A stretch of DNA of 64,000 nucleotides, taken from Neobacillus paridis. Lineage in GTDB: Bacteria > Bacillota > Bacilli > Bacillales > Cytobacillaceae. The DNA lies in contig NZ_JAESWB010000168.1 of the NCBI RefSeq assembly GCF_016765675.1, positions 186,001 through 250,000 of the forward strand. The letters are read 5' to 3'. The translations under genes were made by a program, and so were the position numbers. The notes beneath the pieces were generated by a model, which made no database searches, had not been told where the DNA came from, and was given only the letters and a program-made list of their open reading frames with translations. Positions 26,175 to 27,331 of the stretch are shown piece by piece (position 1 is the stretch's first letter; every line of letters begins with the position of its first letter).

Positions 26175-26450
26175 ATGTTTATACAAAGACAAGGATTGGT
26201 GGTTTGGCTTTATTCTTTAAAGCATGCTAAAATGCTTAGACGTTTTGGCAATGTCCATTATGTCTCAAAGAAGCTTAAATATGTTGTATTATATTGTAAT
26301 CAGGACGATATTGCTGAAATAATGGAAAAGCTGAACTCATTCTCTTTTGTCAAAAAGGTTGAGCCGTCTTATAAACCTTTTTTAAAAGTGGAATATGAGA
26401 ATGCCATCCCTGATAAAGCAAAAGAATATGATTATAAAATGGGAATTTAA
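26175..26450 (+). CDS. ylbG: YlbG-like small protein (DUF2129)
   Basis: 91 residues, strongly basic, with the family pattern [21 protein letters not shown] near the start and [16 protein letters not shown] in the middle. Function unknown; a predicted RNA- or protein-binding fold cannot be named from sequence. AAGGGG precedes the ATG by nine bases. The gene ends directly before the CsfG-like RNA, which is transcribed towards it. Confidence 0.9.
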
Positions 26451-26481
26451 AGGTGAGGTGAATCCTCATCTTTTTATAAAT

Positions 26482-26510
26482 TAAAAAAACCCTGTAGACA
26501 TCTACAGGGT
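26482..26510 (-). terminator. intrinsic terminator of csfG
   Basis: Perfect stem ACCCTGTAGA / TCTACAGGGT (26489-26510) with seven A residues on the forward strand to its left, which form the T-run of the reverse transcript. No T-run on the forward side, so it is a reverse-strand terminator. Confidence 0.85.
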
Positions 26511-26628
26511 CCTTCTATATCCTTTTTCGGATAGAAGGCAAAGGGAGAGGAGAAACCGGAGGAAGAACTTATGGGGAAACGTAAGTCTTCTCCGCGGTTG
26601 GCAACAACATCCTCGAATTGATGTTGTT
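26482..26628 (-). ncRNA. csfG: CsfG-like sporulation small RNA
   Basis: The ylbG-rsmD gap of 332 bases has no plausible open frame but encodes, on the reverse strand, a transcript of about 147 bases with a forespore-type promoter and a strong intrinsic terminator. Predicted fold in transcript order: hairpin 26603-26628 (AACAACATC/GATGTTGTT), hairpin 26554-26599 with a loop CGTTTCCCCA, a single-stranded C/U-rich stretch 26539-26553 (TCTCCTCTCCC), hairpin 26511-26538, and the terminator 26489-26510. CsfG, as I recall, is a forespore RNA between ylbG and ylbH (rsmD) conserved in endospore formers; the location, structure and promoter all agree. The C/U-rich stretch could pair with ribosome binding sites. 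Confidence 0.78.
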
Positions 26629-26634
26629 ACTATC

Positions 26635-26662
26635 AGTATCTCCATAACCTAAAAGCTTATAC
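26635..26662 (-). promoter_or_regulatory. sigma-F/sigma-G-type promoter of csfG
   Basis: Reverse strand GTATA (26658-26662), 14-base spacer, GGAGATACT (26635-26643). The -10 fits GGNRANANT fully and the -35 fits GYWTA. The -10 decamer GGAGATACTG is identical to that upstream of sigG. Confidence 0.7.
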
Positions 26663-26782
26663 GTCTTTTCGATATTTTCTCTGCAAAAAATAAGACCTCA
26701 TTTTTATCAGTTTGGTTCCATTTATTGATTTATGGTAGGATGTTAAAGAAAGGCAATATTGTAAAAAAACGTGGTGGTATTC

Positions 26783-27331
26783 ATGAGAGTAGTTTCCGGT
26801 CTTTGTAAAGGCAGACCTCTTAAGGCAGTTCCGGGGAATTCAACAAGACCAACAACTGATAAGGTCAAAGAAGCGATTTTTAATATGATTGGCCCTTATT
26901 TTGAAGGCGGCAGCGGCCTGGATCTTTTTGCCGGCAGCGGCGGGTTAGGGATTGAGGCGCTTAGCAGAGGGCTGGAGAAAGTCATTTTTATTGACAGGGA
27001 TGCAAAAGCCATCCATATCATCTATGACAATATCAAAACATGTGGATTTGAAAACGCCACAGAGGTTTATCGAACGGATGCCGACCGTGCTCTAAAGGCA
27101 TTGATAAAAAGAAACATGAAGTTTGATTATATTTTTTTAGATCCGCCTTATAAAAAACAACAGCTTGTTTCTTTAATGGAAAATATGGACAAACACAATA
27201 TTATCAATGATAATGGAATAGTCATATGTGAGCATAGCTTTGATATAAAATTACCTCATACAGTCGGTTCATTGGCACAAATAAAACATGAGCAATATGG
27301 GATAATTGCTGTGACGATTTATTCAAAATAA
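26783..27331 (+). CDS. rsmD: 16S rRNA m2G966 methyltransferase RsmD
   Basis: SAM-dependent methyltransferase that modifies G966 of 16S rRNA. 182 residues, Rossmann fold with LDLFAGSGGLGIEA (SAM binding) and the catalytic FLDPPY motif of N2-guanine methyltransferases. ATG 26783 begins MRVVSG as in the family; the track extends 4 codons upstream through a GTG. Ribosome site weak (GGTGG). Followed by coaD after 23 bases; the pair is a frequent neighbour combination. Confidence 0.95.
   Translation: MRVVSGLCKGRPLKAVPGNSTRPTTDKVKEAIFNMIGPYFEGGSGLDLFAGSGGLGIEALSRGLEKVIFIDRDAKAIHIIYDNIKTCGFENATEVYRTDADRALKALIKRNMKFDYIFLDPPYKKQQLVSLMENMDKHNIINDNGIVICEHSFDIKLPHTVGSLAQIKHEQYGIIAVTIYSK

Follow-up and report, generated by a model that had tools for sequence, protein, structure and literature searches.

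Anatomy of the ylbG-rsmD gap

In the 64,000-nucleotide stretch of Neobacillus paridis DNA analysed here (the window), ylbG ends at 26450 and rsmD (ylbH) starts with the ATG at 26783. With this start, the gap between both genes comprises 332 bases, in agreement with the preliminary description; a GTG at 26771 is listed as an alternative start. The minus strand of the gap carries a putative gene for a small RNA with the following features.

26658..26662, minus strand: -35-like GTATA of a forespore-type promoter, from sequence and conservation in relatives
26635..26643, minus strand: -10-like GGAGATACT, 14 bases from GTATA, from sequence and conservation in relatives
26482..26628, minus strand: csfG RNA, approx. 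147 nt, 5' end placed from the promoter
26603..26628, minus strand: hairpin 1, arms 26628-26620 and 26611-26603 with 9 of 9 base pairs, present in the alignment consensus
26554..26599, minus strand: hairpin 2 with the C-rich loop CGTTTCCCCA at 26572-26581, from fold and alignment consensus
26543..26555, minus strand: linker TTTCTCCTCTCCC, the best-conserved stretch, from fold and conservation
26511..26538, minus strand: hairpin 3, arms 26538-26531 and 26518-26511, absent from the alignment consensus
26482..26510, minus strand: terminator hairpin 4 (26510-26489) followed by seven U (T run 26488-26482)
26480..26597, plus strand: match to RF00516 ('ylbH leader'), antisense to the RNA

The minus-strand promoter (GTATA, 14 bases, GGAGATACT), the four hairpins with a strong terminator, the C/U-rich loop CGTTTCCCCA and the C/U-rich stretch TCTCCTCTCCC between hairpins 2 and 3 (26553-26543, minus strand) were all found where they had been described before. 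The first two bases of the linker TTTCTCCTCTCCC are able to pair within hairpin 2. A simple scan reported the terminator hairpin on the plus strand only and listed no forespore-type promoter, as it covers only sigma-70 promoters. The RNA strand folds with -55.4 kcal/mol (z -6.4), which none of 200 shuffles equalled, and the opposite strand with -56.1 kcal/mol (z -5.4). Both strands fold well and the strand is thus not decided by folding alone.

Identification as CsfG

The region matched RF00516 with 116.4 bits against a threshold of 50 (cmscan, Rfam 15, plus strand). This was the sole Rfam match at threshold in the window and the single one of this family in its genome; other families scored far under their own thresholds. 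A hit to an Rfam model of CsfG had been expected from the preliminary description. The region does score above threshold, but with a family labelled as cis-acting 'ylbH leader' that covers the same DNA on the opposite strand, while no family named CsfG matched in the cmscan of the window.

CsfG was reportedly published as a forespore small RNA by Marchais et al. in 2011 (RNA Biol 8:358), under a title that is said to call it 'highly conserved in endospore formers'. Flanked by ylbG and ylbH/rsmD, which are both on the plus strand, the RNA found here is encoded on the minus strand and is matched by the family on its reverse strand (RF00516 region). Judged by sequence, it has a conserved sigmaF/sigmaG promoter (GTATA-N14-GGAGATACT), its C/U-rich stretches, one located in a loop and the other between two helices, are conserved, and it has an intrinsic terminator. 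It is restricted to endospore formers when SpoIVA is taken as proxy.

In B. subtilis, a northern blot gave a signal from the reverse strand only, and this RNA was equated with CsfG (PMC3574147; this and the other papers given by PMC number are used in excerpt). CsfG, also named S547 (PMC8216469), is made in the forespore under control of sigmaF and sigmaG according to work on B. subtilis (PMC3574147, PMC8216469). The B. subtilis RNA and the copy in the window share the gap, the strand, a sigmaF/sigmaG-type promoter, C/U-rich single strands and the terminator; no notable anatomical difference was apparent, the window copy being known from its sequence. Together with the RF00516 match, this literature backs the earlier assignment, and the minus strand of 26482-26662 is almost certainly the CsfG orthologue of Neobacillus. 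It is an already known element.

Other small RNAs resemble it in part. RoxS/RsaE and FsrA also possess C-rich single strands of a type that pairs with G-rich mRNA sites (PMC4409812, PMC8216469), but they are different genes with different regulators, and identity with RoxS/RsaE (RF01820) was rejected with 21.4 bits in the window against a threshold of 79. Bvs196 of B. velezensis is, like CsfG, a small RNA of the forespore controlled by sigmaF and sigmaG; with 294 nt and a location between hinT and ecsA it is a different gene (PMC9147052). That paper gives its B. subtilis homologue as S357 at one point and as S547 at another. The latter looks like a slip, since S547 is CsfG.

Strand and independence from rsmD

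Promoters were counted with the pattern GYATA, 14-16 bases, GGNNANAHT, which we take to be the sigmaF consensus. Of 139 distinct upstream regions, 99 carried it ahead of the RNA, compared to none of their 139 reverse complements and at most one of 139 in 50 rounds of shuffling. With other patterns, 120 (relaxed sigmaF), 23 (sigmaG) and 76 (relaxed sigmaG) of the 139 regions were positive. Of 171 distinct 3' flanks, 165 have a terminator-like hairpin with T run behind the RNA; the other strand showed such structures in 19/171 across 5' flank and core and in 42/171 within the 3' flank. The 160 collected loci comprise many Neobacillus as well as repeated retrievals of one genome; promoters, terminators and linker columns were counted on distinct sequences. 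These counts over relatives support a minus-strand location of promoter and terminator, as had been proposed for the single sequence.

The base changes in hairpin 1 also point to the RNA strand. Among 35 aligned sequences, A-U was changed to G-U in 16 cells and U-A to U-G in five, compared to two cells with A-C/C-A, and G-U pairs exist on the RNA strand only. Hairpins 2 and 4 added no strand support with five such G-U cells versus eight A-C/C-A. At least one double change was seen in 14 of 32 consensus pairs, mostly in hairpin 4. Alignment A2 was made without L025 and L030, whose terminators had been truncated on extraction. Conservation of the hairpins, which had been put forward as a check, held for hairpins 1, 2 and 4, but hairpin 3 is missing from the alignment consensus.

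In five of 160 loci (L020, L022, L023, L086, L131), the unit as a whole has the opposite direction between ylbG and rsmD and carries promoter and terminator along. The first three belong to one genus and L131 is from Neobacillus novalis. The usual direction was found in 153 loci. No neighbours were obtained for two: L076 is located at a contig end, and L096 is a false match. Outside the class Bacilli, L247 is inverted beside rsmD as well. In total, inversions occurred in at least four separate lineages, with promoter and terminator included where these were read.

The inversion of the whole unit means that CsfG is not an rsmD leader. A cis-acting ylbH/rsmD leader is what the Rfam type and strand of RF00516 imply, the element does lie upstream of rsmD and its plus strand folds too. 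Such a leader would be located before ylbH/rsmD on the same strand as part of its mRNA, but the unit is inverted in the five loci and in L247, promoter and terminator face the other way and the B. subtilis northern blot was without plus-strand RNA in the excerpt of PMC3574147. This makes the leader extremely improbable.

Even less credible is a small peptide gene on the plus strand to which the RNA would be antisense. A good-looking ribosome site and start codon (GGAGG, 8 bases, ATG, with a product starting MGKRKSSPRL here) are indeed present on the plus strand, complementary to hairpin 2. However, the ATG is missing in 10 of 51 distinct sequences, and the remaining 41 frames comprise 2 to 56 codons with varying residues after MG. 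Start and frame are thus lost among relatives and the small gene was rejected.

Distribution and link to sporulation

In the sample of the order, RF00516 matched 273 of 299 genomes (269 above threshold) and SpoIVA was found in 288. As tallied by hand from the match lists, the RNA was matched in 272 of the 288 genomes with SpoIVA and in one of the 11 without; this sole exception (G254) is a weak match (E 3e-4) that was not found at rsmD. Sixteen genomes with SpoIVA were without a match, namely, ten of the genus g43, five of g90 and G206, which is 80% complete. One g43 genome (G039) has a divergent copy at rsmD (L163) with its CCCCC moved to the next hairpin, while in three others (G079, G163, G215) no copy was seen at rsmD. 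The exact linker also occurs in G162, G214 and G238, by eye in no csfG-like setting. It seems that csfG was lost or strongly changed in g43 and g90 despite the presence of SpoIVA. Among the nearest relatives, 39 of 40 matched; the lack of a match in the genus-mate G304 is due to the edge of a contig on which rsmD begins at base 222.

In the class sample, 183 of 299 genomes matched, 152 of them above threshold. The phylum sample gave matches in 115 of its 299 genomes at E 0.001 with only eight above threshold, so that the RF00516 threshold leaves 107 of the 115 unlisted. Twenty-eight matches outside the class were read, of which eight ranked among the best and 20 were drawn from all along the list: 25 are divergent from and beside rsmD, one is inverted beside it and two are without rsmD. 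Several of these copies have by eye a promoter resembling GTATA..CATAATA.

A sequence model, R1, was built from 51 distinct cores including loci of the phylum sample and matched 145 of its 299 genomes, partly by construction. From the best R1 matches in genomes missed by RF00516, 17 were read: 14 adjoin rsmD, two have the core without rsmD and one (L368 in G837) is judged false but still counted among the 145. SpoIVA was present in 250 of the 299 genomes. R1 matched 142 of these versus three of the 49 without SpoIVA, and RF00516 matched 113 versus two (Fisher p = 8e-12 and 4e-9, respectively, with relatedness ignored; the cross-tables were compiled by hand from the match lists). The three R1 matches without SpoIVA are from the incomplete assemblies G665, G711 and G868 (72, 80 and 61% complete). 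As more than 100 of the 250 SpoIVA genomes were unmatched, csfG either lacks universality at the sensitivity reached here or has diverged beyond recognition in some genomes. The 2011 description aside, no description of CsfG in clostridia was found in the literature searched on CsfG.

CsfG-like cores without rsmD in the fetched stretch were seen in L238, L250, L354 and L359, which may be moved copies or lie beside a diverged rsmD. Second matches within one genome were judged false in G006 (L096, 31.3 bits, poor alignment) and in G606. Both matches in G641 run up to the end of a contig, suggesting that a single locus was assembled twice. Second matches were also present in G052, G138, G270, G421, G473, G492, G698, G722, G799 and G852.

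Conservation of the linker

Of the 160 loci, 119 share an identical 57-nt core, many of them being from one genus. The 11 linker letters UUUCUCCUCUC are invariant in all 38 ungapped rows of the 51 distinct cores, and nine linker columns are invariant across all 51 sequences. Linker changes were seen in L252, which is without one U, L237 and L254, which differ at the end, and L362 with two changes. The linker UUUCUCCUCUCCC thus rarely changes while the stems are replaced: L163, L170 and L177 have the letters of hairpin 2 replaced and the linker retained, and several clostridial copies do not form hairpin 2 in single-sequence folding. The smallest forms observed (L365-L367) consist of about CUCCGGUUUCUCCUCUCCCA before a hairpin, adjoining rsmD. 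Judged by these comparisons, the constraint on the linker is stronger than that on the fold.

Possible mode of action

According to the best explanation of these data, csfG is a free-standing minus-strand gene that would be transcribed in the forespore by sigmaF, and probably by sigmaG too. The product would be a non-coding RNA of approx. 147 nt that forms four hairpins and has an intrinsic terminator. Its action is most probably in trans: in the proposed mechanism, Shine-Dalgarno regions of mRNAs would be paired with the CCCC loop in hairpin 2 and with the linker UUUCUCCUCUCCC, perhaps also with CUUCCUCC if hairpin 2 opens, and translation would be blocked, as it is by the C-rich RoxS and FsrA. 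We infer the pairing, the repression and every target. The Shine-Dalgarno complementarity of the C/U-rich stretches, which had been pointed out before, is plausible, and pairing with such regions in the forespore is slightly favoured. Identity with CsfG and this mechanism, taken jointly, are considered rather probable.

CsfG has been grouped with RoxS and FsrA by its C-rich regions (PMC4409812, PMC8216469) and is said to regulate mRNAs in a paper citing the 2011 work among others (PMC12456014). According to the excerpts of PMC8216469 and PMC9147052 no CsfG target is known, and the latter mentions no obvious sporulation defect upon disruption of these small RNAs.

A 36-nt strand was tested against 50 start regions of the window and reached -16.5 kcal/mol, compared to -8.8 kcal/mol for coding controls. 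Shuffled strands reached -15.4 kcal/mol; eight of 200 were as good, and 11 of 200 for the difference between start and coding regions. Given the fact that shuffles nearly match it, this affinity for start regions is mostly an effect of base composition. The linker alone was no better than its shuffles (142/200 and 54/200). Near ATG starts, 70 sites complementary to the linker were found in 14 genomes versus 34 for a reversed control. The search was restricted to ATG starts and to one portion of the linker; 69 rows were translated, some with the same site twice. The target prediction suggested earlier did not yield a conserved target among the 14 genomes: sdhA alone came up in more than one genome, namely, in two that belong to one genus.

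In these two genomes (L301 and L316), the ribosome site of sdhA, GGGAGAGGGG, is complementary to the CsfG linker when wobble pairs are included. As FsrA and RoxS act on TCA-cycle genes (PMC8216469), sdhA is a lead and no more. L342 (G310:C1, ∼4024690-4024925) turned out to be a DNA repeat with three head-to-tail copies approx. 103 bases apart, each holding GGGAGAGGAGGAAAAGGAGTGATG and a short open frame.

The lack of a conserved target in this search would also fit a C/U-rich strand that binds a conserved protein (Hfq, Rho, a KH or S1 protein), with CsfG serving as forespore sponge or scaffold in place of mRNA pairing. The unpaired stretch is conserved letter by letter, and CsfG of B. subtilis co-purifies with Hfq (PMC3574147). 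However, its level drops only modestly without hfq (PMC3574147) and related C-rich small RNAs work by pairing (PMC8216469). Protein binding of this kind is regarded as possible, though unlikely.

Pairing with 16S rRNA, which would silence forespore ribosomes, is far less likely still. Here, CUUCCUCCGGUUU is the exact 13-nt complement of AAACCGGAGGAAG, which lies beside UGGGGA. The 13-mer occurs at 49 places in six genomes, and of 30 fetched places 26 were 16S genes, two csfG and two other. Shuffles of the core reached this match length in 0/1000 cases on a 1015-nt 16S piece and in 5/1000 on the operon region. With the whole 155-nt RNA shuffled, however, the values rose to 6/1000 and 13/1000, respectively, and the duplex energy on 16S was ordinary, being reached by shuffles in 17/200 (36-nt strand) and 55/200 (core) cases. 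Moreover, CCUCCGG is missing in L139, L163, L170, L199, L239 and L245, and the complement was noticed after the fact.

The near-invariance of the linker over the phylum exceeds the usual need of a few mRNA seeds and thus favours a universal partner. The barely changing strand CUCCGGUUUCUCCUCUCCC may mimic the anti-Shine-Dalgarno end of 16S rRNA or be the ligand of a conserved forespore protein; CUCCGGUUUCUCCUCUCCC and this 16S end both contain CCUCC..UUUCU, as do 105 of 5000 shuffles of the strand. That CUCCGGUUUCUCCUCUCCC serves such a partner and that CsfG is a phylum-wide, probably ancestral component of endospore formation damping forespore translation overall is a speculative and rather doubtful proposal, and pairing with Shine-Dalgarno regions remains the preferred reading.

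Implications

RF00516 is a public RNA family on the wrong strand, since northern blots in B. subtilis show RNA from the other strand (PMC3574147, in excerpt), and its threshold hides many members outside Bacilli. The 2011 description aside, the present work adds the inversions, the co-occurrence counts, the sub-threshold copies found next to rsmD in genomes beyond Bacilli and a linker more persistent than its stems. The comparison sharpens the question of the target: the unit may invert as a whole, the stems may be exchanged and the linker hardly ever changes. Some clostridial copies keep little beyond 20 letters beside rsmD. These letters could serve as bait for the partner of CsfG, and the clostridial copies offer independent systems in which this partner may be tested.
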